Translations under genes and position numbers: made by a program
Origin: a virus
Virus record (IMG/VR): IMGVR_UViG_3300010883_000162
Coordinates: 1 to 35,714 of that record
Strand: one strand, 5' to 3'
Length of the DNA: 35,714 nt
Part shown: positions 10,518-33,179 of the stretch, piece after piece
Layout of the letters: every line of letters starts with the position of its first letter
How positions within the stretch are numbered: the first letter of the stretch is position 1
Notes under the pieces: generated by a model
The model's input: the letters and a program-made list of their open reading frames with translations, nothing else
Told to the model about the DNA's origin: nothing
Database searches by the model: none

Positions 10518-12101
10518 GTGGATAGCAAAGATTTTAAAAAGAAACAAGCTGCTCAGGCAAAAAAACAGTCTGGTCATCAAGGTGTGTTCTCTGGAAGGGG
10601 GATAGGTATACCTCAAGGAGGTGCAGTAGATGGAAGTGCAGATGGATCAAAGTATCTAGGTCGGCCTCGACGAAAAAGAATGTCTGGTGATATGGGAAGC
10701 CCCAGCCAATCAGCTGATGCCCATATCGCATTTGTTATGTCAAGAGTAAATAAAAATGTTGATCCAGAGCCATATAGACTAATGTTTCCTAAGCAAGAAG
10801 ATGCGAAGCATAATAAATATAAAGGAATGGACGCAGAGAGTGAAAAGTTGCAAAATATAAAAATCCAATCACAGCTTTATATTGATGAAGAAGATATTAT
10901 TGATAATACAGCATATAGTCTTCTATCTATAGACAGCGATGAAGATAGACGCGTGAGCGAAGCGTTTAGCCTAAGCTCATTGGGATTACCTGGTTCTATT
11001 CCCGGTCTTTCACAAAGTCAGCTAGATCTCTTAGACACAGCTATAGAAGTAGGCGGTGAGATTGTTAGAGATACTACAGCAGCTGTAGTTGCAGGTATTC
11101 CTGTTATTGGAACAGCAGCAGCAGCAGGATTTGTCTATAACAATATGAGAGAGCTTAAGACTGGGCAGAAAAATGCAATATTAGCAATTGATAGATTAAT
11201 AGTCAATGGAAGAGAGAAGGATAGACAGCAGATGCTATCTGTTGCATATAATATGTATGATGATTATATTGACCTCCTGGAGTCAGTTGTACTTTTGGTT
11301 CCCATAATTGGACCAACAAAGGGTATATGGAGTGTATTTAGAAAAACGCTTACAATACTTAAAAAGGGAAAAGTTACATCTATACTAGGTCTCGGCGGCA
11401 GCGGCTTAATGTCTGCTGTAAGATCACAAATATTTGCCAGCCCAATCTTTAAATTTACAACAAGATATATAGATGCAGGTCTTACAGAGCCAGCACAGAT
11501 ACAGCGGGGTGAGCTATTAAGCGTATTTAGAATATGTCCAGCCACCCTTGTAACAATTGGAGATATAGATGAAGATTTTATTGCACAAAAAGAAGAGTGG
11601 GATGATCTTGCATCAGAAGAAAGAGTGAAATTATTTGGTCCGGGTTCTGAAGATGAGTTTAAATATAGATCTGCACTCTATGGAGTTGTAGGTAAGGACG
11701 CTGAGTATGATGATGTGGGAAGGATTCAAAGAATTAGGCAGATGATAGCAGACAAATATAGAGAATTGAAATCAACAGGCGAAATATTACCAGAGGGAAA
11801 ATCAATGAATTCAGAAAAACTACTTAGAGCTTACATTAGAGAGACAATATATCATTCTAATACAGCACCAATGTATGATGCTAAGCCAGAAGGCTACAAA
11901 TATAGACAACCAGAAGGATCTCCTCAGTATAATGAAGAATATCCAGTTGAAGAAATAACAGCATCAGAGTTTGCAGTAACTGTTCCTACTTCCATGGGTT
12001 CACTTGTTAACTCACCTAGACCAAGAGATATAAAGGAAGAAGCACTTAGAAGAATAATTAGAAGAAAGCTTGTAGAAGAAAAAAAAAAAATAATCCGCTA
12101 G
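10518..12101 (+). CDS. Unknown 527-aa protein with hydrophobic core and tag-like C-terminus
   Basis: It starts at GTG 10518, 4 nt after the previous stop; the ATG at 10514 is out of frame and stops after three codons. The N-terminal 90 residues are basic and Gly/Gln-rich. The middle contains two hydrophobic helical stretches, about 184-210 ('TAAVVAGIPVIGTAAAAGFV') and 250-272, and then a Gly-rich 'LGLGGSGLMSAV'. Residues ~430-445 ('SEKLLRAYIRETIYH') and the extreme C-terminus ('EEALRRIIRRKLVEEKKK') resemble the LRxIIxEE-type peptide at the N-terminus of other proteins here. The reading frame runs into 12 consecutive A (12079-12090) just before its stop. I do not recognise a family. A membrane-active or virion-packaged protein is possible. 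Confidence 0.75.
   Translation: MDSKDFKKKQAAQAKKQSGHQGVFSGRGIGIPQGGAVDGSADGSKYLGRPRRKRMSGDMGSPSQSADAHIAFVMSRVNKNVDPEPYRLMFPKQEDAKHNKYKGMDAESEKLQNIKIQSQLYIDEEDIIDNTAYSLLSIDSDEDRRVSEAFSLSSLGLPGSIPGLSQSQLDLLDTAIEVGGEIVRDTTAAVVAGIPVIGTAAAAGFVYNNMRELKTGQKNAILAIDRLIVNGREKDRQQMLSVAYNMYDDYIDLLESVVLLVPIIGPTKGIWSVFRKTLTILKKGKVTSILGLGGSGLMSAVRSQIFASPIFKFTTRYIDAGLTEPAQIQRGELLSVFRICPATLVTIGDIDEDFIAQKEEWDDLASEERVKLFGPGSEDEFKYRSALYGVVGKDAEYDDVGRIQRIRQMIADKYRELKSTGEILPEGKSMNSEKLLRAYIRETIYHSNTAPMYDAKPEGYKYRQPEGSPQYNEEYPVEEITASEFAVTVPTSMGSLVNSPRPRDIKEEALRRIIRRKLVEEKKKIIR
12079..12090 (+). other. A12 run: possible -1 frameshift or transcriptional slippage site
   Basis: Twelve consecutive A cover three Lys codons four codons before the stop of the 527-aa gene. 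A -1 shift here reads Asn-Asn-Pro-Leu-Glu-Ala-Val and then enters the ATG at 12110 in frame with no stop between. The run contains the slippery heptamer A AAA AAA. Function is inferred; an assembly or sequencing homopolymer error would look the same. Confidence 0.5.
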
Positions 12102-19291: not shown

Positions 19292-19894
19292 ATGAAGTGG
19301 ATTAGTAAAGTATCGCCTTTAATTAAAGAGATAGAGTTAAGAAAAAGCCCAGTAATAATTACTGTCAACAAGTTTGATGAAAAAGCATCTAAAGAATTTC
19401 AACAGCAAATTGCACTAGCCCACAATACAGGCCAAAAAGTAATTCCAGTTGTAATAGATTCTTATGGCGGCCAAGTTTATAGTTTGATGGCTATGATAAG
19501 TGCAATTAAATATGCAGAACTTCCTGTGGCTACTATTGTTGAAGGAAAAGCGATGTCATGCGGTGCAATTCTTTTTTCATTTGGTGAAGAAGGTTTAAGG
19601 TTTATGGATCCAGATGCAACTGTAATGATTCACGATGTTTCTTCAATGGAGCATGGCAAGGTCGAAGAGATAAAAGCATCTGCTGAAGAGACTGAGAGGT
19701 TAAATCAAAAAGTTTATACAATGATGGCTAGGAATTGTGGTAAAAAAGATGATTATTTTCTTAAGCTTGTTCATAAGCGCGGCCATGCAGATTGGTTTTT
19801 AGACGCAGAGGAGTCAAAGAGGCACGGAATGGCAAACCAGCTTAGAATTCCAAAGCTTAATATATCTGTAAATGTAGATATAGATTTTGAATAA
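19292..19894 (+). CDS. clpP: ClpP-like serine protease
   Basis: This 200-aa protein has the ClpP/crotonase fold signature. The catalytic triad is intact: Ser89 in 'GKAMSCGAIL', His114 in 'VMIHD', and Asp167 in 'HADWFLDAEE'. The substrate-strand 'DSYGGQVYSLMAM' matches the ClpP glycine-rich entry loop. It would self-assemble into a cytoplasmic proteolytic barrel. It might use host ClpX/ClpA, serve as a phage protein-processing protease, or modify host proteolysis; no ATPase partner is encoded nearby. ClpP-type prohead proteases exist in other phages, but this gene is in the replication/lysis area rather than beside capsid genes. No clear Shine-Dalgarno sequence precedes ATG 19292. Confidence 0.85.
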   Translation: MKWISKVSPLIKEIELRKSPVIITVNKFDEKASKEFQQQIALAHNTGQKVIPVVIDSYGGQVYSLMAMISAIKYAELPVATIVEGKAMSCGAILFSFGEEGLRFMDPDATVMIHDVSSMEHGKVEEIKASAEETERLNQKVYTMMARNCGKKDDYFLKLVHKRGHADWFLDAEESKRHGMANQLRIPKLNISVNVDIDFE

Positions 19895-21630: not shown

Positions 21631-22425
21631 ATGAGACTTATAAATGAAAACATTAGGATGATTTTTGGTCATAATCCAATTTCTGAAGCAGAGACAAAAG
21701 ATGTTGAAGTTGCAGGTTTTAATATTAACGAGACATTAGAACGTCATATTTGGAATGATAATATGAAAATGGATTCTGATGTAAGAGAACAACTTTTAAA
21801 AATAGCACATGATTTTATTGATGGTCTTCCGTTTGAAGTAGTTGCTAAAGATATTCAGCTTACAGGATCTCTTGCTAGCTATAACTGGTCAAAATTTTCA
21901 GATGTTGATTTGCATATAGTTGTTAATTTTAGCACAATTGATGATAATGAAGTTCTTGTTAGAGATTATTTCAACGCTAAGCGTGCAGTCTGGAATCTAA
22001 AGCATGAGATATATATCTACGAATACGAAGTTGAGATATATGTTGAAAATATGGGTGACGATCATATAGCTTCTGGAAAATACTCTGTTGAAAATAATGA
22101 ATGGATTTACAAGCCTACTAGGGATAAAGATATTGCAATAAGTGAGGATGAAGTCAAAAAGAAAGCAGCATCAATAATGTCACAAATAGAAAGGGTTGAA
22201 GAGGTTTCGAAAGAAGATCCTGCAGAAGCAGAATCACTTGCTGAAAGAGTAAAGGAGAAGATTAGAAAAATGAGACAAGCAGGTCTTGAATCAAAATCTG
22301 GGATATACTCTATAAAAAATATAGCTTTCAAAGTTTTAAGAAGAAATGGCTATTTGCAAAGGCTGTCTGATATAAAAACACAATCTTATGATAGATTAAT
22401 GTCTCTTACAGAAATATATAGATAG
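21631..22425 (+). CDS. Nucleotidyltransferase-fold protein
   Basis: This 264-aa protein carries the Pol-beta-type nucleotidyltransferase signature 'LTGSLASYNWSKFSDVDLHI' (Gly79-Ser80, then Asp91 and Asp93), with an acidic residue on the next strand ('YEVEIYVE', Glu135) as candidate third metal ligand. Such predicted nucleotidyltransferases occur in T4-like phages without known substrate. The C-terminal third is helical and charged. The N-terminus (MRLINENIRMIFGHNPISEAE) resembles, weakly, the short peptide shared by other proteins in the window, with 'ISE|A' at residues 17-20. A TATAAT sequence directly abuts the ATG, and no Shine-Dalgarno sequence is seen. It could modify tRNA, protein or nucleotide; this is not decided. 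Confidence 0.8.
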   Translation: MRLINENIRMIFGHNPISEAETKDVEVAGFNINETLERHIWNDNMKMDSDVREQLLKIAHDFIDGLPFEVVAKDIQLTGSLASYNWSKFSDVDLHIVVNFSTIDDNEVLVRDYFNAKRAVWNLKHEIYIYEYEVEIYVENMGDDHIASGKYSVENNEWIYKPTRDKDIAISEDEVKKKAASIMSQIERVEEVSKEDPAEAESLAERVKEKIRKMRQAGLESKSGIYSIKNIAFKVLRRNGYLQRLSDIKTQSYDRLMSLTEIYR

Positions 22426-22447
22426 TAAGCACTAACGGAGTTACATA

Positions 22448-23956
22448 ATGAACAGTCTAACAAGACTTAACCTTAGAGGTTTTATACTTGAATCAATTAT
22501 AGAACTTACTGAAGAAGATGAAGCCAGTAGCGATGTCCATCCGCGCGATGGCGAAATTGCAAATGCAACCTTAGATCTAGATTCGCTAGTAACAAACAAC
22601 ACTAACGGAAATTTCAATTCAGCAAATTTTGAACCTGTTGTATTTGGTGAAGATGGATCACTAGGTCCATATCTTTATTCATTATTTCATACACCAGGCA
22701 GGGATCCCAACGACTTCACTGATGTATGGTGGACGACAGGTGCAAATGCTAAGGGTACAAATGCACTTTCAAGAGCGCGCTGGACAAAAAATGTTGATAT
22801 AGTAAATGATAATAGTGGTAGAAAATGGTACTCCCTTTCTAAGCTATCAGGACCAACAGACAAGCTTGATAGCAATTACAACTCTCAAGTTTTAAAGTCA
22901 TCAAAATCTTCAAAAGCAATGTATGATGCCACTGGTATACTATTTGTTAGCTCTATGGAATGGCTTGAAGCAGGTGGTGCCAATCTGGAAAAACTCCCAG
23001 AAGCTGATAAGTACGAAGGACGTCAAACATGGTCCCCACCTGGTTCTGACGAAATATATGTAAGCTTTCCATCTGGTACAAACTTTGCACTTACCAAGCC
23101 AGAAGATGACCATAGAAACAAAGCAGTACGTGCACAAGTCAAAAGGAAAAAAGAAGAAAAAGCAAGCGGTCCAGGACTCTCTACACGGGTGGCCAGAATA
23201 GTTAAAATGATGGATTTAGATGTCTACGGTCCTATACTAAGCCTATTATCTGACGCAGAACAGGGCCTCTTTGGACCTGGTCCGGCTGAAGGAGCTTCAA
23301 AACTGTTTAAACGAACAGAAACATTAAGCATGCTCAGCAAGCCCTGGGTTGAAGAACCAACCTACACCATCAAAACTGAGCATCCGCCTCAGCCCTTCGA
23401 GCGAACTGGATCAAAGGAGCCGCTTGTGCAGCTATACAAGTCAATAGTTAGACCAAGTTTGAAAACCGGCTTAGACGGAGATCAGTTTGCATTAGCATAT
23501 ACACTTCTAGCAAATGCTTCAGGTCTTGATTCACCTTTATCTACTCTTGATGAGCTATATAGATTACTTACAGGCGCTGATATGGAAAGTTTCAAGCGTG
23601 ATCTTGCCCAGCTTAAACTTATGCTGAACAACGCATTAGGAAATACAAGCGGCGTCGTTATAAAAAAACCAAATGCATATATCAAGCAAGAATCAAATAG
23701 GTTAATCAAAGCAGGAAATTCTATTCTTCCTGATAAAGCAAGAATTAGAAGTGCAAAAGATGTCGAACCGTATGTTGAAAAGGCCGAACAGTTAGCTGCT
23801 GCAATTGAAGCAAGTGTAAGTGTATATAAAACCAATTTAAGCATATTCCGAGGCATGCTGCAAAATGACAAAGATGTTATAGAAGTTCTTAGTAGATCGG
23901 GATTGCTTCCTAAGGACAGTGAAACTCTTGGAGCTTTTTCAGGCTATAGCGTCTAG
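22448..23956 (+). CDS. Unknown 502-aa protein with tag-like N-terminus
   Basis: ATG 22448 has a Shine-Dalgarno ACGGAG. The N-terminus reads 'LTRLNLRGFILESIIEL', similar to the LTxxxLRxII peptide of the minus-strand pair, with a possible 'ILE|S' processing site at residues 13-16. The next ~200 residues are Ser/Asn/Gly/Trp-rich and globular ('DFTDVWWTTGANAKGTNALSRA'). The second half is helical, rich in Leu, Ala and Lys, and probably forms coiled coils. There is no signal peptide or membrane segment, and I do not recognise a family. Some patches (22530-22560, 22980-23440) use more GC-rich codons than neighbours. A virion-internal or injected protein is one guess. Confidence 0.75.
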   Translation: MNSLTRLNLRGFILESIIELTEEDEASSDVHPRDGEIANATLDLDSLVTNNTNGNFNSANFEPVVFGEDGSLGPYLYSLFHTPGRDPNDFTDVWWTTGANAKGTNALSRARWTKNVDIVNDNSGRKWYSLSKLSGPTDKLDSNYNSQVLKSSKSSKAMYDATGILFVSSMEWLEAGGANLEKLPEADKYEGRQTWSPPGSDEIYVSFPSGTNFALTKPEDDHRNKAVRAQVKRKKEEKASGPGLSTRVARIVKMMDLDVYGPILSLLSDAEQGLFGPGPAEGASKLFKRTETLSMLSKPWVEEPTYTIKTEHPPQPFERTGSKEPLVQLYKSIVRPSLKTGLDGDQFALAYTLLANASGLDSPLSTLDELYRLLTGADMESFKRDLAQLKLMLNNALGNTSGVVIKKPNAYIKQESNRLIKAGNSILPDKARIRSAKDVEPYVEKAEQLAAAIEASVSVYKTNLSIFRGMLQNDKDVIEVLSRSGLLPKDSETLGAFSGYSV

Positions 23957-23966
23957 AAATTTATTA

Positions 23967-23995
23967 TTGTAAATATAGTTTTCCTAAGTTATAGT
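23967..23995 (+). promoter_or_regulatory. Candidate promoter for secreted protein gene
   Basis: TTGTAA (23967-23972) and TATAGT (23990-23995) are separated by 17 nt. The expected transcription start, near 24002, is just before the Shine-Dalgarno sequence AAAGGAGG (24005-24012). Confidence 0.5.
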
Positions 23996-24016
23996 TTAAT
24001 TTGTAAAGGAGGCTTT

Positions 24017-24409
24017 TTGCTACTTATAACTTTTCTATTTTCCATGGGTATCCAGAATGCACATGCTGAACCTGTAACCGTTTTTAATAGGTCTAATCCT
24101 GAATATAATGTTGATAAATTTATAGGAAAAAGAACAGAAAACTCATGTAGGCTTTCGCTTATTTCTTATTTTGAAAATGATGGATGTATGCGTGCTATAT
24201 CAAGGGGTGATCTAGAAATAGAATATCTAAAGTGTGCAGACGGCAACAATCATAAAAATCTATCAAACTACTATATCATCTATGACAATAGCTTTCTAGA
24301 AACGTTTGCGGGAAATACACCAAGCGAAAATTCTGATGCATCTAAAGTTTATTGTAGTGATCCTAACTATACTATTTTTGAGTGGAACATTTACAAGATA
24401 GAAAATTAA
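24017..24409 (+). CDS. Secreted or periplasmic four-cysteine protein, unknown function
   Basis: The start is TTG 24017, chosen because the strong Shine-Dalgarno AAAGGAGG (24005-24012) lies 4 nt upstream. An ATG start at 24044 would destroy the export signal. The first 17 residues form a signal peptide: hydrophobic 'LLITFLFSMG', then 'NAHA|EP', a signal peptidase I site. The mature ~113-aa protein has four Cys (about 43, 57, 74, 115), enough for two disulfides, and is small and Tyr/Asn/Asp-rich. It has its own promoter. An exported small phage protein with disulfides may act in the periplasm, for example in superinfection exclusion or lysis control, but this is speculation. No known family is recognised. 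Confidence 0.75.
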   Translation: MLLITFLFSMGIQNAHAEPVTVFNRSNPEYNVDKFIGKRTENSCRLSLISYFENDGCMRAISRGDLEIEYLKCADGNNHKNLSNYYIIYDNSFLETFAGNTPSENSDASKVYCSDPNYTIFEWNIYKIEN

Positions 24410-24565
24410 TATTGATATCATAATTTAAATGATTGAGCATTAAGAAAAAATACCAACACAAGGGTAATACTGAAAGATTTGGAAGTCTGGTGTAAATGGC
24501 ACAGCAGAAGAGATCTGGAGTGAAGTTAACTCTGGTCGTATGAGACCTATTAGATAGCTATTTGT
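24410..24565. other. 156-bp gap between convergent genes with G-rich, possibly structured segment
   Basis: The first 50 bp are AT-rich. From about 24460 to 24552 the + strand is clearly richer in G (many GG and GA) than typical intergenic DNA here. It contains short hairpins, GAGT...ACTC (24518-24532) and GGTC...GACC (24534-24547), and three TCTGG words. Both flanking genes end here. No open frame with a start codon, no tRNA cloverleaf and no T-tailed terminator is seen. It might be a small RNA, a gene remnant or a bidirectional 3' end. Confidence 0.3.
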
Positions 24566-25225
24566 TTAACTATTAAACTTTCTCAATCTAGCAACACTGT
24601 TCTCAATAGTGACATAAGTCTGGTGTGTAACCCAGTCACCTGAATTGATATATGTCTTTATATTTTGATTTTCGTCAACCCAGATCAGAGCTTCTGGTAT
24701 GTGTGTGTGACCCATGATAAAAACATCGATTTTTGGGTGGTGTCTGAGAATATGAATGATTGATCTGAGTTTGTGTTTTTTAATTTGAATCTCTGTCCAC
24801 CACGTTGTAAAATCAAAGTTAAAAGTAAATTCAAGCATATTTTGTATAACTGACAAGAGTTTAACAAACACTTTGTTTGCAAATGCACCTTTATCATATT
24901 CATCGCCATGCTCAACTCTAAATTTTCTGCCATCTTCTTCAAAGTCATATCTTTTTACAAAGTTGATTCCAAGAAGATTTTTTCCTACAACACCTATTAA
25001 TCCTTCATCGTGATTACCAACAACATAGACTACCCTCTTGGCTGAGCCCATCTTTTTTAATATTTGTAGACATCTCTCTGTAAATACAGGAATTTTGATA
25101 AAATCAATGATATCTCCTGCCAGAATTAGTTCATCACAATCAGATTTTTCTAGAAAGTTTAAAAGCTCTTCTGATCTATAGAATTTTGTACCAATGTGTG
25201 TGTCTGATATAACAATTCTTTTCAT
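24566..25225 (-). CDS. Calcineurin-like metallophosphoesterase (LpxH-like)
   Basis: This 219-aa protein has all five metal-site motifs: 'SDTHIG' (Asp8, His10), 'AGDIID' (Asp38), 'VGNHDEG' (Asn71, His72), 'EHGDEYD' (His106) and 'MGHTHIP' (His173, His175). It is a two-metal phosphoesterase. Size and motif spacing recall UDP-2,3-diacylglucosamine hydrolase (LpxH) and small Ser/Thr phosphatases, and the substrate cannot be told. The gene is alone on the minus strand and diverges from the 25372 gene. A GGGGAA sequence precedes the ATG, and a TATAAT (25252-25257, minus strand) lies about 27 nt upstream. In a phage it may act on nucleic acid ends, nucleotides or lipid precursors. Confidence 0.85.
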   Translation of the reverse strand: MKRIVISDTHIGTKFYRSEELLNFLEKSDCDELILAGDIIDFIKIPVFTERCLQILKKMGSAKRVVYVVGNHDEGLIGVVGKNLLGINFVKRYDFEEDGRKFRVEHGDEYDKGAFANKVFVKLLSVIQNMLEFTFNFDFTTWWTEIQIKKHKLRSIIHILRHHPKIDVFIMGHTHIPEALIWVDENQNIKTYINSGDWVTHQTYVTIENSVARLRKFNS

Positions 25226-25251
25226 TGAACAAATATTCCCCTTGTATTAAT

Positions 25252-25257
25252 ATTATA
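25252..25257 (-). promoter_or_regulatory. Candidate -10 box for metallophosphoesterase gene
   Basis: Perfect TATAAT on the minus strand, 27 nt upstream of the ATG and between inverted CTTGT...ACAAG arms (25241-25245 and 25266-25270). No good -35 box is found at 16-18 nt. Confidence 0.35.
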
Positions 25258-25298
25258 TTGATTAGACAAGCTGTATTATCTATACTTTCTTATTTTAA

Positions 25299-25349
25299 TT
25301 GAAAATAGTTCAAATACAGTAATTTAATTCTTGTGTATAGTTACTATAC
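25299..25349 (+). promoter_or_regulatory. Candidate promoter plus 7-1-7 palindrome
   Basis: TTGAAA (25299-25304) and TTTAAT (25323-25328) are 18 nt apart. Just downstream is the perfect inverted repeat GTATAGTTACTATAC (25335-25349), preceded by CTTGT. The palindrome would cover the transcription start or early leader, as an operator would. A near-copy lies at 30748-30762. Confidence 0.45.
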
Positions 25350-25371
25350 GTTTTTACCAAGCGGAGGGAAA

Positions 25372-25605
25372 ATGGAAGATAATAATGAAATGATGATTGA
25401 AGATGAGGTTGTTGGTCAAATTGCAAAGCTTGTTCAGCTTGCAATTCTTACCGGGACTGATGTTGTTGACAATTTAAGAATGATGAGGTTACAAATCAAT
25501 GAAGAAAATGGAAGGCTTTGTTTAAGTGATTCTTATAGAGAGCAATCAGAAAATCAAGTTAAAAACCTACTAGATAAACTGGACAAGCAAGAGACAGTGG
25601 AATAG
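25372..25605 (+). CDS. Small acidic helical protein, unknown function
   Basis: ATG 25372 is preferred because GGAGGG (25363-25368) precedes it at normal spacing. The longer frame from GTG 25333 would translate straight through the palindrome at 25335 and lacks a Shine-Dalgarno sequence. The 77-aa product is acidic and helical ('EVVGQIAKLVQLAILTGTDVVDNL') and might mediate protein contacts. It heads a run with dUTPase-like, nucleotidase and ThyX genes and precedes the dUTPase-like gene by 6 nt. No family is recognised with confidence. Confidence 0.75.
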   Translation: MEDNNEMMIEDEVVGQIAKLVQLAILTGTDVVDNLRMMRLQINEENGRLCLSDSYREQSENQVKNLLDKLDKQETVE

Positions 25606-25611
25606 GATACT

Positions 25612-25986
25612 ATGACTGATAGACTTTCAGAAATATTTATGCTGAGAGAGATTTTTATGAAAAATCTAAGAGAATCTAGTGACGATGATATACCCATGTG
25701 GCCTCTAGACCTTAGTACAAAGGAAAATCAACAATATGTGAGAGATATGGCGCTTAGAGGTGTAGAAGAAATGTTTGAAGCACTTCAGCATCTTAAAAAC
25801 TGGAAACCTCATAGAAAAACTGAGGTAACTGAATTTAATAGTGAGGAGTTTTTAGAAGAAATTGTTGATGCTTTTAACTATTTTTTATCAATACTTATAC
25901 TAACAGGCTTTGATGATAACGATTTAATTGATGCATATAGGAAAAAAGATGACATCATAAATAAGCGACTTTCTTCAGGATATTAG
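25612..25986 (+). CDS. All-alpha NTP pyrophosphatase, dimeric dUTPase-like
   Basis: This 124-aa protein matches the all-alpha NTP pyrophosphatase (MazG/dimeric dUTPase) pattern. 'GVEEMFEALQHLKNWK' supplies Glu53 and Glu56, and 'EEFLEEIVDAFNYFLSI' supplies Glu83 and Asp86, the four acidic residues that bind Mg2+ on two helices. The 'ALQHLKNWK' and 'DAFNYFLSILILTGF' wording is like the small dUTPases of T4-like phages. The likely reaction is dUTP (or a related NTP) to NMP plus pyrophosphate, which keeps uracil out of DNA and makes dUMP for ThyX (27154). Substrate is inferred from family style and context. Confidence 0.8.
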   Translation: MTDRLSEIFMLREIFMKNLRESSDDDIPMWPLDLSTKENQQYVRDMALRGVEEMFEALQHLKNWKPHRKTEVTEFNSEEFLEEIVDAFNYFLSILILTGFDDNDLIDAYRKKDDIINKRLSSGY

Positions 25987-25991
25987 CTAGA

Positions 25992-26210
25992 ATGTATATT
26001 TTATCAATAGACTGCAAATATAAAAAAGTAAAGATCAAAACAAAAAAAGATATTATAAAATTTCTAAAATCTCTTGACACAAAAGATATTACTGGATCTA
26101 TAGAGTTTGAAAACAATATTAGTGAATCTTTGGTATTTAAAAAAGTAGACGTTAAAAGTTTGATTGTGATAATAGAAAAAGAACTTGAAAGAAATGAAAA
26201 AATTATTTAA
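25992..26210 (+). CDS. Small basic protein, unknown function
   Basis: This 72-aa, Lys/Ile-rich protein has 'MYILSIDCKYKKVKIKTK' and a charged C-terminal helix. ATG 25992 lies 5 nt after the previous stop with no clear Shine-Dalgarno sequence, and the gene end overlaps the next gene by 17 nt. No motif is recognised. Its codon use (many AAA, ATA, AGA) is like its neighbours. It may be real because it bridges two genes with operon-like spacing. Confidence 0.55.
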   Translation: MYILSIDCKYKKVKIKTKKDIIKFLKSLDTKDITGSIEFENNISESLVFKKVDVKSLIVIIEKELERNEKII

Positions 26211-27108
26211 AGACCAAGCAAGATTTAACAAACTAGTAGAAAAATATAAAAGCAGAACACGTGATGAGATTACGAAAGAGCTTGCTCTTGCATTACACTC
26301 AGAAGTAAGTGATTTAGTATCTGCAACAAGTTATAGATCACATAGAAAGAAAAAAATAAAGCCAGACATAGATAAGATACTATTTGAATCTGTTGATATA
26401 GTTCGATATACAATAGCAATACTTAATGAATGGAATATTTGTCATGAAGATTTTTTAAATGCATGGCAGTCAAAGGACACGTATTTAAATTCTTGTAATA
26501 GATGTGAAAACAATATATGGAACGGTGAGAAAGTCGCAATTATAGATATTGATGATGTTTTGTGCGAATTTAGACAAGGTTTTTCAAAATGGCTTCTGCA
26601 CACGCACAGTATTGTAACTGACGTAGAGTCAAGCGAGTATTATTTCATATCAGCACTAGAAGAAACTGGTCACAATCCAGAGAAAATTTTTGAATCATTT
26701 ATATCTGATTCTGGATTTTTAAATCTTGATATTGCTACGGGCGGAAAAGAATTTATGGATAATTTAAAAGATGATGGGTATTTTGTTCATATTTTAACTG
26801 CACGACCAGGTAATAATTTACGATGTGTATATAATACATTTGAATGGCTTGAAAATAATAAAATATACTTTGACAAGATTGACTTCGCATCAGAAAAGCT
26901 TAGATGGTGCATCCAGTCAGACTACTGGTGTAAAAATTCAATTTCATTTGCAGTAGATGATTCGCCAAAGCATGCAGCAGAGTATAGTAAGCATGGAGTT
27001 AAAACATTCTTTCCAGATAAAAGTTATAATAAAGAGCTAGAATCTATATCAGAGTGTTTTAGATATGAAAGTTTTGAAAAAATAATTAAAATGATAAAAA
27101 ACAATTGA
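26194..27108 (+). CDS. Fusion of MazG/dUTPase-like domain and HAD-family nucleotidase
   Basis: The N-terminal domain (about 1-98) is an all-alpha NTP pyrophosphatase: 'LALALHSEVSDLVSA' and 'LFESVDIVRYTIAILNEW' give Glu37, Asp40, Glu65 and Asp68 as candidate Mg2+ ligands. After a linker with a CxxC ('CNRC', 101-104), the C-terminal domain is a HAD phosphatase: motif I 'IIDIDDVLCEF' with nucleophile Asp118 and Asp120, motif II 'ILTARPG', and motif IV 'FAVDDSPKHA'. It resembles 5'-deoxyribonucleotidases. Together the two could take a dNTP to a nucleoside in two steps. ATG 26194 is chosen over TTG 26185. The gene precedes ThyX, and the fusion is unusual. Confidence 0.75.
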   Translation: MKKLFKDQARFNKLVEKYKSRTRDEITKELALALHSEVSDLVSATSYRSHRKKKIKPDIDKILFESVDIVRYTIAILNEWNICHEDFLNAWQSKDTYLNSCNRCENNIWNGEKVAIIDIDDVLCEFRQGFSKWLLHTHSIVTDVESSEYYFISALEETGHNPEKIFESFISDSGFLNLDIATGGKEFMDNLKDDGYFVHILTARPGNNLRCVYNTFEWLENNKIYFDKIDFASEKLRWCIQSDYWCKNSISFAVDDSPKHAAEYSKHGVKTFFPDKSYNKELESISECFRYESFEKIIKMIKNN

Positions 27109-27133
27109 ACATACTATAGTTTTTTATTAATAT
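27105..27133 (+). promoter_or_regulatory. Candidate promoter for thyX-like gene
   Basis: TTGAAC (27105-27110), identical to the recA promoter -35, and TAATAT (27128-27133), identical to the SSB promoter -10, are separated by 17 nt. The spacer contains the palindrome ACTATAGT (27113-27120). The Shine-Dalgarno AAAGGA (27143-27148) and ATG 27154 follow. Confidence 0.6.
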
Positions 27134-27153
27134 TGCTATATAAAAGGAAAAAA

Positions 27154-28140
27154 ATGCCACAAAACAAGTCTCTAGAGCCCGTAGAATTTCCAATGCCAAT
27201 ACGGTTTGGGGAAAAGCCTTGCACAGAATTTAAAAATGATCTTGAGTCTATTAATGTAGTACTTATAGATCACCCAGATCCAATAAGAGCCAGAAAGATG
27301 GTATATCAGTTTATTAATGCTACATGGGAAGACAAGCCTGGGTCACATAATCCTGATTGTGTTGAGGATTGGAGGCTGTTTCATGCACTTGAAGCAGCAC
27401 TTCAGTTTAAAGCACTACCTACAGTTCTTGAGACTCTTGATTTTACATTTAGAATTGAAGGTATTGATGTTCAAACTGTAACTCATCTTATTAGACATAG
27501 AACTGGATCTTTCTCTGCACAATGTACGGGTGATAGATGGCAATCACATGCAGGAGCTCTTGTTCCTGGTCCTATTCAAAATAGTCCAGAGCTATACAAA
27601 AGATGGAAAAAGCTTGTAAAAGATTCAAAAGAGCTTTACTGTGATATGATTGATACAAAGAAGATTTCAATTATGGATGCAAGAACTATACTTCCAAAGT
27701 GTCTTGAGACGCATTATTATGCAAGGTTTAATCTAAAGGATCTTTTAAATTTTGTTAGGCAGAGAATGGATAAACAGATTCAACCAACTACAGATAATAT
27801 TATAGCATATCAGATGTATCTTCAGATTGCAAGAATATTTCCAGAGATTACAACAGTTATTAATATGCATTCAGAATCTAGACATTATGTTGCAACTGCC
27901 AGAACTGGTAAGGCTACAAATCTTTACTGGCCAGATACTGATTCTGACAAGTTTGACTGGCATCCAGAAGATTTTATATATCAGGGCTATAGAGACGAAA
28001 TAAACGGAACAGATGTTAAGCTAGGTGATAAGGAAAACTTTAAGTTTACACACCTTCAAAGAGAATATGATAAAAAAATATCAGATATTGTAGAGAACTA
28101 TAATGTATGGAAAGACGCGATTGGATTTCAATCTCCGTAA
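27154..28140 (+). CDS. thyX: Divergent flavin-dependent thymidylate synthase (ThyX-like)
   Basis: ATG 27154 is chosen over an upstream TTG 27133 because AAAGGA (27143-27148) precedes it. The 328-aa protein has the ThyX fold signatures: 'THLIRHRTGSFSAQC' (110-124) for the RHRx7S motif, and 'LKDLLNFVRQRMDKQIQPTT' in the dUMP/FAD-binding helix region. The motif is altered: the Ser of ThyX (T. maritima Ser88) is Cys124, and the Arg two residues on is displaced by Gly-Asp to Arg128. It is also longer than typical ThyX (~220-250 aa), with an extra C-terminal ~70 residues. It would convert dUMP to dTMP; whether the variant does this or makes another modified nucleotide is open. Upstream dUTPase-like genes could supply dUMP. 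Confidence 0.75.
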   Translation: MPQNKSLEPVEFPMPIRFGEKPCTEFKNDLESINVVLIDHPDPIRARKMVYQFINATWEDKPGSHNPDCVEDWRLFHALEAALQFKALPTVLETLDFTFRIEGIDVQTVTHLIRHRTGSFSAQCTGDRWQSHAGALVPGPIQNSPELYKRWKKLVKDSKELYCDMIDTKKISIMDARTILPKCLETHYYARFNLKDLLNFVRQRMDKQIQPTTDNIIAYQMYLQIARIFPEITTVINMHSESRHYVATARTGKATNLYWPDTDSDKFDWHPEDFIYQGYRDEINGTDVKLGDKENFKFTHLQREYDKKISDIVENYNVWKDAIGFQSP

Positions 28141-28149
28141 TTTGAATAT

Positions 28150-28563
28150 ATGAGCTTTTATAAAGCATATAAAATAGTTGAATCATGGTTACTTGAAAAA
28201 GACTATACTATTTTTCTGGAAACAGATGGACAAGATGCTGTTTATTTTGAATGTAACCAGGTTGTAATCAACAGTAGAAATCATGTTGAAAAAAGACTTT
28301 ATATACTGCTACATGAATGTGGACACATACTAATAAATAACAATTCTTTGGATAGAGTATTTTCTTTAAGTCATGATACTGCAGCTATTATGGGAGTAAG
28401 AGTTTCAAGAAAAAGAAGAGTTGCAAAGCTTACAGAAGAAATTGAGGCATGGAAGCGTGGAGAAAGTCTTGCGAAAAGACTTAATATAGAGATAAATGAA
28501 GAAAAGTTTGATAAGATTCGAGCTGATTCTATTATCAGCTATGTTGAATGGGCAAGAGACTAG
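28150..28563 (+). CDS. HExxH metallopeptidase-like protein, cytoplasmic
   Basis: This 137-aa protein has 'RLYILLHECGHILINN' with His55, Glu56 and His59 forming an HExxH zinc motif. The conserved tail 'LTEEIEAWKRGESLAKRLNI' supplies Glu97 as candidate third ligand. It resembles ImmA/IrrE-like phage peptidases in the way an HExxH helix is followed by an 'EEIEAW' helix. There is no helix-turn-helix, signal peptide or membrane segment. It is 9 nt after ThyX. The stop TAG forms the palindrome CTAG (28560-28563) shared with the stop of the convergent minus-strand gene. Its substrate is unknown. Confidence 0.75.
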   Translation: MSFYKAYKIVESWLLEKDYTIFLETDGQDAVYFECNQVVINSRNHVEKRLYILLHECGHILINNNSLDRVFSLSHDTAAIMGVRVSRKRRVAKLTEEIEAWKRGESLAKRLNIEINEEKFDKIRADSIISYVEWARD

Positions 28564-29429
28564 CTTTTATTCTGAATACTTTTAATATTTGAATAGAGTT
28601 TAGTTAAAAACTTTTCAAAAGCCTTTCTATCGTTTTTAAGATACTTTCTATAGTCATCAATGACACCTTTTACAGATATGTCATTTCTCTTTATAAGCTC
28701 AAGAGATTCTTCAGGTGTATATTGATCAAGAAGTTGCTCAGCTGCTTCATATGCAAACGCATCTATTTCATTATGAAGTGAGATATATGAGTCTCTTCCA
28801 CCAGATGTTTCAGGTGGTTTTCTACCACATCTTTTCTCCCACTCAGCAGGGTCTGATCCATGTATTTGCTTTGGATCACATAGAAGTTCTTCCCATGCAT
28901 CTTCTTCACTAATATTTTTATTTTCTGCTTGTTTTTTAAGCTGATTATAGTGTACAAGTTCATGATTAATGGTCCTTGATACTATCTTTCCAAGCTCTAC
29001 CGGATTAAGATCACCTATGTCATATTCTTCTGAAACTGGCCTAAATTCAAGCCATATAATGTGCTTTCCTTTTTCTGGCCCTCTATACTGACCTCTCATC
29101 ATCCAGTTGTCTGGGTATCCACCAAACTCATCACCCGCTGCCAGTGTATACGTTTCATCATCAGTTACACTTAAGATAAAATATAGATCTGTATTAAGAT
29201 CTTCAGCAGATTTATTAAGAGCATCCATTAATGTTTCAATTGCCGGTGTAGAAAAAGTAGCATCATCAACAAGGTCTACATCACTTTCTTTATGAGGCAT
29301 TTCCCAGAATTTAGAATCTACAATTGCCTGTAATATTCCTGATGTAATTAATTTATCAGGCGCAGTAGACTCATAAAGAGAAAGCTCTTCTTGAATAATT
29401 CTTCTTAGCTTGCGTTGAGTTAGTATCAT
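28560..29429 (-). CDS. Zincin-like metallopeptidase with N-terminal tag peptide
   Basis: This 289-aa protein starts with the tag-like 'LTQRKLRRIIQEELSLYES' (residues 3-21). The catalytic domain has 'RTINHELVHYNQLKKQ' with His156, Glu157 and His160, and 'SLHNEIDAFAYEAAEQL', where Glu221 is the candidate third zinc ligand. The fold type is that of large-phage HExxH proteins I recall as hypothetical. 'LYE|S' at residues 18-21 fits the (L/I)xE|(S/A/G) style of T4-type prohead protease sites. It overlaps its upstream gene by ATGA and the convergent gene by the 4-nt palindrome CTAG. A role in the virion or as an injected protease is a guess from the tag. Confidence 0.75.
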   Translation of the reverse strand: MILTQRKLRRIIQEELSLYESTAPDKLITSGILQAIVDSKFWEMPHKESDVDLVDDATFSTPAIETLMDALNKSAEDLNTDLYFILSVTDDETYTLAAGDEFGGYPDNWMMRGQYRGPEKGKHIIWLEFRPVSEEYDIGDLNPVELGKIVSRTINHELVHYNQLKKQAENKNISEEDAWEELLCDPKQIHGSDPAEWEKRCGRKPPETSGGRDSYISLHNEIDAFAYEAAEQLLDQYTPEESLELIKRNDISVKGVIDDYRKYLKNDRKAFEKFLTKLYSNIKSIQNKS

Positions 29430-30679
29430 CTATTAGTACCCATGTCTAGTGCTGCTAGGTCTCTAGCAGTTTTAGGATAAAATGTTGATACCCAGTGAAG
29501 CAAATTATAATTTAACTCTTTTATTGTTGATTCAGTAGCCATCATTGTATCCTGGATAACAGTAAGTTCTGGATTACTTAGTAATTTCTTTGCGTTATTG
29601 ATAAGCTTCCATTTACCTTTGGGCCCTTCAAACTGTCCATTTCGTAAAGCTATCATATCAAGATCTTTCATTAGCTCTTTTAAGTCACTAATAAGATCGC
29701 GATAATCTCTAAGTGTAACACATCCATCCTCAAGTATCTTTTCAATTATGCCTCTAATAGTTTCTAGAAGGGGAAGCTGAGTGTTTCTTATACTAAGCGC
29801 ATCAACGGGAGAGTTGTCAGGTATATCTTTAAAGTGTCGAGTAAAGAAAAATATCATTGTATTTAAATATTCTAGAAGCTCCCCCATATTATTGAGGACA
29901 GGGAATGAAAGTGTGCCTGATCTTCTTGTTCCTGTGGATATACCGCCTCTGTGAATTATCTTAGCTAGCGGTATACACTCATCAAGGCTGAGCTCATCAT
30001 CTACTTCTTGCTCTACTTCAATTTCTGGAAATAGCTCAATTAGTGTACCAAAGTCGTCATCTGATGATGCTTCTACCTGGCGCTTGAGTCTTTCACTGTA
30101 CTCTCTAGCTGCTACGACAAATTCCTTATCTATTGCAGGAATTGTCTCACCATATCTTTGGCCTAGTAATTGAACAGAGTCATTTGATATGAGATCTCTT
30201 ATTATATTACCGCCTGTACCCTTGAAGTCTTCTATGGCTAAAGCTATAAATTCTAGATGACGGCTAGCTTCATCTTCTCCAAAATCTCTAGGACGTACTG
30301 GATGCTGGAGATCTCTTGCAAATCTTTTAAGCTGGGTTGGACTTTCCGCTGACGTGCTAAGAGGATAGTAGAACAAAAATGCAAATGAACCAAATAGTGC
30401 GAGAACAATTGCTAATGCAGCTCCTGCCTGAACCATTGCGCCTGCTGTTGTCATCATTACTTCTGCAGACAAAGAAGCCACTATTATTCTTGCATTTGCA
30501 ACGCTAAGTGCTGGTAAAATTTGTGCAATATCATTCGGTTTAAGTTGTCCTGACTCAATAAGACTAATAATATTCTGTACAATCTGGGAAGACTGTGCAG
30601 GATCAGGCATTTTTAGTTCATTAATTCGATAAATTTCTTCCTGAATAATCTGCGTGAGCCTGCTATTTGTAATTTTCAT
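29426..30679 (-). CDS. Unknown 417-aa protein with N-terminal tag peptide and one hydrophobic segment
   Basis: The N-terminus 'MKITNSRLTQIIQEEIYRI' closely matches the start of the downstream zincin (LRRIIQEEL). A hydrophobic stretch at residues 79-107 ('MVQAGAALAIVLALFGSFAF') is long enough to span a membrane. The remaining ~300 residues are charged and helical, with Glu/Asp-rich parts around 200-230. No catalytic motif is recognised. 'LIE|S' at 40-43 is the nearest prohead-protease-like site. It is the first gene of a two-gene minus-strand unit, coupled to the zincin by ATGA. The start is preceded by AAGG (plus-strand position ~30690). A virion or internal membrane-active protein is possible. 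Confidence 0.7.
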   Translation of the reverse strand: MKITNSRLTQIIQEEIYRINELKMPDPAQSSQIVQNIISLIESGQLKPNDIAQILPALSVANARIIVASLSAEVMMTTAGAMVQAGAALAIVLALFGSFAFLFYYPLSTSAESPTQLKRFARDLQHPVRPRDFGEDEASRHLEFIALAIEDFKGTGGNIIRDLISNDSVQLLGQRYGETIPAIDKEFVVAAREYSERLKRQVEASSDDDFGTLIELFPEIEVEQEVDDELSLDECIPLAKIIHRGGISTGTRRSGTLSFPVLNNMGELLEYLNTMIFFFTRHFKDIPDNSPVDALSIRNTQLPLLETIRGIIEKILEDGCVTLRDYRDLISDLKELMKDLDMIALRNGQFEGPKGKWKLINNAKKLLSNPELTVIQDTMMATESTIKELNYNLLHWVSTFYPKTARDLAALDMGTNR

Positions 30680-31292: not shown

Positions 31293-33179
31293 ATGGGAAA
31301 GGTTGTAGGTATTGACTTGGGTACCACAAATTCATGCATTGCAATTGTGGAAGGAAAAAACCCCTGTGTCATTTCAAATGAAGAGGGAGGCAGAACTACA
31401 CCGTCTGTCGTTGCATACGGAAAAGATGGTGATCGACTTGTAGGTGTCTCAGCACGACGCCAGGCAATTGTAAACCCTGAGACAACCGTGTATTCAGTAA
31501 AAAGATTTATGGGAATGAAGTTTAAAGATATAGAAGAAGAAATATCTAATGTTCCATATGCTGTAAAACAGGTAGCAGGTGGTGTATGCGGAATTAATAT
31601 CAATGATAAGATTGTTTCTCCGCCTGAAATATCAGCGCAGATTTTGCTTAAGCTAAAGCGAAGTGCTGAGAGATATTTAGGAACTACTATTAGTGAAGCA
31701 GTTATTACAGTTCCAGCATATTTCAACGATGCACAACGGCAAGCAACAAAAGATGCGGGACAGATTGCTGGGCTTGAAGTAAGACGAATTATTAATGAAC
31801 CAACAGCAGCTGCTCTTGCATACGGAATGGACAAAGAGGGAGAACAAAAAGTTGCTGTCTTTGACCTTGGCGGCGGCACATTTGATATTTCAGTTTTAGA
31901 GATATCTGACGGAGTAGTTGAAGTTATTTCAACAAATGGAGATACACACCTGGGTGGTGATGATGTAGATCAAATACTAATGGTGTGGCTATTTGAACAA
32001 TTTGAATCTGATACAGGTATTGATATAAGCAATGATAGCATGGTTATACAAAGAGTTAGAGAAGCTGCAGAGAAGGCAAAGATTGAACTTTCAACTGCAC
32101 AGCAAACAGAAATTAATCTACCTTTTCTAACTGCAGATGCATCTGGTCCTAAACATTTAATTTCATCACTCTCTAGATCACTATTTGAAAAAATGATTGA
32201 CAGCTTTGTTAATAAAACACTTGTGCCAGTCAAAAATGCATTATCAGATGCAAGTCTTCAACCTCATGATATTGATGAGGTTATTCTTGTTGGGGGATCA
32301 ACAAGAATTCCTGTAATTCGAGCTGCTGTTGAGAAATACTTTGGCAAGAAAGCAAATAGCTCTGTAAATCCAGATGAGGTTGTTGCTCTAGGTGCAGCAG
32401 TACAAGGAGGCGTATTTTCAGGAGATATAAATGATGTTCTGCTATTGGATATTACACCACTCTCTCTAGGGATTGAAACGCTAGGCGGCGTAATGACAAA
32501 GCTAATTGAAAGAAATACTACAATCCCGTGTTCAAGAAGCGAAACTTTTAGTACTGCATCTGATAATCAGAGTGCTGTAGATATTCATGTTCTTCAGGGC
32601 GAAAGAGATTTTTCTTCAGACAATAAAACCCTGGGTAATTTTCAACTTGCTGGAATTCCGCCAGCAGCAAGGGGTGTACATCAGATTGAAGTAAAATTTG
32701 ACATAGACGCAAACGGAATAGTGAGTGTATCTGCTAGCGACAAGATGAGTAAAAAAGAACAATCTATCATAATTGAGTCAGGCGGAAGCTTATCTTCCGA
32801 AGAAATAAGCAGGATGGTAAGTGAAGCAGAAGAAAATGAAGAAGCAGATAAGAAAAAGCTAGCTGTAATATCAGCAAGAAACAAGTTAGATACTCTTATT
32901 TATCAATCTCAAAAGACAGTAGATGATAACAGTAAAAATATTTCTGCAAGCTCTATTGAAAATATTATAGAGATTATTAAATCTTCTCGATCATTGCTTG
33001 ATAGTAATACTGCTCAAGATATAGAGGCAGCATATACCTCTCTTGAGTCTGCTCTACATGCAGTAAGTAAAGAGATATATGCACAGGATCAAGATAGCAA
33101 TCAGCCTTCGAATAATAATCAGGATTCAGATGGTACTAACAAAGATGATGTCATCGATGCAGAGTTCGAAGAAGCATAA
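31293..33179 (+). CDS. dnaK: DnaK (Hsp70) chaperone, full length
   Basis: This 628-aa protein is a complete bacterial-type Hsp70. The nucleotide-binding domain has '[15 protein letters not shown]' (6-20), '[20 protein letters not shown]' (138-156 region) and '[16 protein letters not shown]' (189-204). The linker is 'VLLLDITPL' (382-390). The substrate-binding domain has '[19 protein letters not shown]', a helical lid follows, and the C-terminus is '[11 protein letters not shown]', the GrpE/DnaJ-responsive tail of bacterial DnaK. Length is close to E. coli DnaK (638 aa). Shine-Dalgarno AGGAG (31283-31287). No dnaJ or grpE is in the window. Base and codon use match the phage genes around it, so it has been there long enough to ameliorate. 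It could fold virion or replication proteins. Confidence 0.95.

Follow-up and report, generated by a model that had tools for sequence, protein, structure and literature searches.

A recurrent N-terminal peptide on otherwise unrelated proteins of Far-T4-type phages is a probable capsid-targeting tag

Genes of the window and their N-terminal peptides

The window analysed in this work (the whole stretch of 35,714 nucleotides) is a complete 35.7-kb IMG/VR record that is itself a fragment. Two adjacent genes on its minus strand, located at 29426–30679 and 28560–29429, encode proteins whose starts (KITNSRLTQIIQEEI and ILTQRKLRRIIQEEL, respectively) had been described in the first-pass annotation as alike, and both the coordinates and the peptides were found to be as claimed. 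Among the 32 genes of the window these are the best-matching pair of N-termini, with a BLOSUM62 score of 37 as compared to 31 for the next pair, and internal stretches of the proteins of the window reached at most 20 and 30 when compared to the two peptides. As a likeness of this degree is suggestive but not compelling within the window, the test was extended to other viruses, and a profile of the peptide (hereafter the tag) was built from their proteins with the window left out. In the six-frame translation of the window, this profile gave scores of 35.9 and 25.5 for the two N-termini, and everything else scored 8.5 or less. A resemblance arising by chance, or by simple duplication of one gene, might be read from the modest lead of this pair over the next within the window, but the profile derived from external viruses singles out exactly these two N-termini, and the same tag is present on hundreds of otherwise unrelated proteins. 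Because of the profile scan, we regard this explanation as already refuted and give it a negligible probability.

The protein encoded at 29426–30679 is 417 aa long and contains a hydrophobic stretch near residues 70–105. Its tag (MKITNSRLTQIIQEEIYRINE, residues 1–21, positions 30617–30679, minus strand) is the one that scored 35.9 and has the predicted cut site INE|L. This site is preferred over LIE|S at residues 40–43, which had been proposed earlier and is probably wrong, because the Glu of INE|L falls on residue 21; this and residue 22 are the usual positions in the family. In two related records (G026 and G052) the neighbouring genes are the same but this gene is missing from between them, which points to a cargo that comes and goes. 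No relatives of this protein, or of that encoded at 22448–23956, were found among the viral contigs, and the AlphaFold model of the 417-aa protein is poor.

The second protein (28560–29429, minus strand) is zincin-like and 289 aa long, and its tag (MILTQRKLRRIIQEELSLYE, residues 1–20, positions 29370–29429; score 25.5) has the predicted cut site LYE|S. Its orthologues from G026 and G052, which are 74 and 72% identical, carry textbook versions of the tag, starting MKITSRQLRKIIKEEIYLYE|STAPDK and MKITRRQLRQIIKEEILLCE|STAPDK, so that the sequence L-x-E|STAPDK is retained. The zincin-type motif HELVH (residues 156–160, positions 28950–28964) is invariant in three orthologues and presumably binds a metal. 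The AlphaFold model of this protein is of moderate quality (pLDDT 63), and a fold search with it gave no significant match.

The first-pass annotation had tentatively placed four proteins of the window in one tagged set. The two minus-strand proteins are certain members, and the third, a 502-aa protein encoded on the plus strand at 22448–23956, is a probable one. Its diverged tag (MNSLTRLNLRGFILESIIELTE, positions 22448–22513) has a score of 8.5, the third highest in the window; a chance match elsewhere scored 8.3, but that of the 502-aa protein lies where a gene begins, and the slot that this gene occupies, after the nucleotidyltransferase gene, is filled in relatives by a gene that starts with the tag. 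Whether its predicted cut site is LTE|E or ILE|S is uncertain. The fourth, the nucleotidyltransferase-like protein (21631–22425, plus strand), was rejected as a member of the family, as its score was not above 5 and its close orthologues start with a different N-terminal segment that they have in common. This segment ends in ISE|A in the window (residue 19), and an (I/L)-x-E|(A/V) site is retained both here and in four of the six distinct orthologues; it is missing from G012 and not recognisable in G018. This protein may depend upon a targeting peptide of another kind, or upon none at all.

A ClpP-like protein encoded elsewhere in the window (19292–19894) shows 64–79% identity in all five records compared, which is above most genes, and a full-length DnaK-like chaperone (31293–33179) is 79% identical in G026. 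The C-terminus of a 527-aa protein (10518–12101) consists of two tag-like helices, SEKLLRAYIRETI and EEALRRIIRRKLVEE, and may represent a C-terminal form of the tag peptide. Ahead of the first large tail gene, an 80-aa protein (1290–1532) starts MKENISKKIFESDLIKHLLE|G; its residue 20 is the Glu of an L-x-E|G site of the T4 type, and it has no match to the tag.

Distribution of the tag in viral genomes

The consensus of this N-terminal peptide of about 21 residues is MKITKxQLKQIIKEELxx(V/L)LxE. When the peptide was back-translated to a degenerate pattern and scanned against 2.9 million viral contigs, at least 120 matching stretches were found, often several within one contig, as compared to five for a control pattern shifted by one base in frame. 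Among the matches listed, the strict peptide forms the start of at least 175 distinct proteins, and the profile identified at least 414 distinct tagged proteins in all loci examined except the random set, these loci having been selected for the tag; random viral loci totalling 1.1 Mb gave two weak matches. The tag is thus a short N-terminal peptide common to otherwise unrelated proteins: after its removal, the 391 tagged proteins of at least 60 aa (among the matches listed) fell into 331 families, of which 293 were singletons. Searches with Pfam and PHROGs revealed no common function, and few tagged proteins have one that can be recognised: 12 Pfam families were each found in one of 140 tagged proteins; the single cases include TseH-like, GNAT, HD, AAA_33 and pentapeptide domains. 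Neither a description of the tag nor mass spectrometry of a virion of this kind was found in the open-access literature searched.

Individual genomes contain up to about 30 tagged genes. The comparison of N-terminal with internal frequencies that the first-pass annotation had suggested was carried out on four long records (G001, G008, G012 and G018), in which, by a conservative count, 5–27 genes each (3–13% of the genes) start with the tag, whereas internal matches occur at 0 to 8e-5 per position. Two of these records contain tandem runs that resemble cargo islands, comprising about 13 tagged genes at 125–134 kb in G012 (L192–L198) and about 20 at 9–18 kb in G008 (L199–L211). At third codon positions, the tag sequences of different genes match more often than codon use predicts (0.62 vs. 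0.35 in G012 and 0.53 vs. 0.37 in G008), which suggests that the tag has spread by copying of DNA. The core of the T4-type late promoter, TATAAA, is present upstream of 5 of 22 tagged genes in G012 as compared to 3% at random, and no general enrichment upstream of tagged genes was seen beyond this record.

A cellular origin of the tag was considered and rejected, as only 12 stretches were detected in 257 Gb of genome contigs and most of these contigs look viral. Two contigs with several tags, NHDW01000006.1 (L338, L343 and L345) and PBIO01000025.1 (L339 and L341), are filed under metagenome-assembled genomes of Methylococcaceae and Halobacteriovorax and are probably misbinned phage genomes.

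The site at the end of the tag

The statistics of the putative cut site are based upon 166 proteins that were picked on residues 1–15 alone. The Glu of an (L/I/V/M/F)-x-E motif is found at residue 21 in 29% and at residue 22 in 31% of these proteins (together 60%), as compared to a rate of about 2% per position further downstream. Motifs at residues 19–24 are followed by A, G or S in 46% of the cases, vs. 20% where such a motif occurs elsewhere in these proteins. A second statistic on L-x-E was set aside because its profile covers residues 16–22; that of the 166 proteins is independent. The peptide is thus closed by a motif which, together with the small residue following Glu, corresponds to the cleavage preference of gp21, the prohead protease of T4.

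The same region could instead be a helix that docks proteins onto the scaffold or inner shell of the prohead and is never removed, in which case the cargo would likewise be packaged and L-x-E would be the last turn of the helix. The tag is indeed amphipathic, with a mean hydrophobic moment of 0.43 vs. 0.29 for shuffled sequences, and about 40% of the tagged proteins are without the motif at residues 21–22. However, conservation ends sharply, dropping to background past residue 22, and this, along with the fixed position of Glu and the A/G/S next to it, is expected of a cut site rather than of the end of a helix; moreover, the same kind of site is present in the capsid proteins of the same phages. 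We therefore consider a permanent docking helix unlikely, and a cleavable propeptide the better reading.

Prohead protease, capsid protein and head operon

Peptidase_S77 was detected above the curated cut-off in 17 of 25 long tagged records and the Gp23 capsid protein in 16 of them, whereas S77 passed the cut-off in one of 25 random viral contigs. For contigs of at least 70 kb, S77 was present in 15 of 20 tagged and one of eight random contigs, the random set being shorter overall. Those tagged records in which S77 was not detected are perhaps fragments. The matching prohead protease is also encoded by G052, a 160-kb record that is colinear with the window across more than 20 genes. In this record, S77 is located at 60.2 kb and Gp23 at 64.4–66.2 kb, 15–22 kb ahead of the first well-matched tail gene in common with the window, and the order of the head module and tail genes in G008 is the same. 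As the window begins near the first shared tail gene, its own head module should sit past the left edge, and from the colinear G052 and G008 we infer that the window phage has S77 and gp23 genes of its own. Its tentative assignment to the Far-T4 phages is based upon the capsid protein of G052, which is a Gp23-type protein of the Far-T4 group, and upon the T4-like head operon of that record, the window itself being without head genes.

Tagged genes are also present in the head operon. In G052, both genes directly 3' of S77 start with the tag (profile scores 21 and 31), and G015, G017, G020 and G024 have tagged genes within their head modules near the S77 gene, with the tag being fused in G024 to an AAA_33-type P-loop domain. 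The small gene immediately 3' of S77 starts with the tag-like sequence MKK(S/N/Q)(E/D)LK in six of the seven head modules listed. Further, the capsid proteins of tagged phages retain (L/V)L(R/K)E|(A/S/Q) near residue 61, and the comparable site of T4 gp23 is LTE65|A. In head modules (L172–L178 and L367:22183–22410), a small gene with a product similar to ribosomal protein bS21 lies between S77 and the capsid gene, and a gene annotated as RpsU occupies the same place in Microcystis phage Mel-JY01.

These associations bear upon a further possibility, namely that the tag sends proteins elsewhere: to a membrane, to a compartment modified by the phage, or, as a degradation signal, to the ClpP-like protease of the phage. 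Amphipathic N-terminal helices are capable of membrane binding, and the ClpP-like protein of the window is conserved in every record compared. Such an address leaves unexplained, however, why the tag ends in L-x-E|A/G/S, why it is associated with S77 and gp23 and why genes of the head operon carry it, and we judge it slightly less probable even than a permanent docking helix. The suggestion of the first-pass annotation that these peptides target proteins to the capsid is, in contrast, strongly supported by the comparison (the reuse of the tag, its cut site, the linkage to S77 and gp23, the tagged head-operon genes and the capsid cut site), except that the nucleotidyltransferase lacks this particular tag.

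Comparison with known systems

In T4, the protease gp21 cuts after L/I-x-E, and the capsid-targeting sequence (CTS), which is the only part common to its diverse internal proteins, is alone enough for packaging; for IPIII, the first ten residues suffice (PMC9026906; PMC3012670). The tag resembles the gp21-processed CTS of IPI, IPII, IPIII and Alt in being a short N-terminal propeptide on unrelated, fast-changing proteins and in its (L/I)-x-E end, and the tagged phages likewise combine an S77 protease of the gp21 type with a gp23-type capsid protein. It differs in sequence and length (about 21 residues, with MKITKxQLKQIIKEEL, as compared to the ten needed by IPIII) and in being present on up to about 30 genes in a genome. 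Descent from the T4 CTS finds no support in sequence similarity, as neither IPI, the internal protein that was scored with the tag profile, nor the head proteins of T4 rose above background. The head and ejection proteins of the phiKZ-like phage SPN3US also carry N-terminal propeptides cut by the prohead protease, but these are mostly longer than 100 residues and no single tag extends over many unrelated genes; one pair of paralogues has 15 identical N-terminal residues (PMC5694885).

As tblastn searches of named phages with the bare consensus gave nothing useful, named relatives were sought by means of the capsid protein. Among the nearest for the capsid protein of G052 are Rhodothermus phage RM378, Flavobacterium phage immuto and Microcystis phage Mel-JY01, Far-T4 phages which, like the tagged phages, have a Gp23-type capsid protein and an S77-type protease; immuto and Mel-JY01 also have a similar order of head genes. 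A search of RM378, of 150 kb of immuto and of 50 kb of Mel-JY01 revealed no clear tag family, immuto and RM378 showing isolated weak matches only. The uncultured LR756508 (484 kb) has about ten tagged genes in 50 kb, and the strict tag was not found in any cultured phage.

Proposed role of the tag

Based upon these sequence comparisons, the tag is very likely a cleavable capsid-targeting propeptide of Far-T4-type phages, with its cargo being freed inside the head. The amphipathic helix (MKITK..LKQIIKEEL, about 16 residues) would probably bind to the core of the scaffold as the prohead assembles and thereby draw the cargo into the prohead, where the S77 (gp21-type) protease would cut after (L/I/V)-x-E at residues 20–22. 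The freed cargo would then stay with the DNA in the head and probably be ejected into the next host. Core binding, cleavage, packaging and ejection are all predicted here from sequence, and the injection of the tagged proteins is plausible by analogy with the internal proteins of T4.

It is further probable, with less assurance than for the propeptide itself, that in uncultured Far-T4 marine phages the tag serves as a general head-loading signal whose DNA has been copied from one gene to another within genomes, so that each virion carries tens of different effectors. The internal cargo of T4 includes the restriction inhibitor IPI as well as Alt, and the tagged set is therefore a candidate set of anti-defence or takeover proteins of marine T4-type phages. 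The tag would work like the T4 CTS, with a new sequence and on a much larger scale of use, as a second capsid-targeting peptide alongside that of T4. It would place hundreds of unnamed phage proteins into one predicted class, that of virus-head cargo, and provide a sequence-only means to determine which phages package protein cargo. If the general head-loading role is true, the effector load per virion would be far above that known for T4, and the tag would open the way to hundreds of as yet unknown protein families that enter host cells along with the phage DNA.
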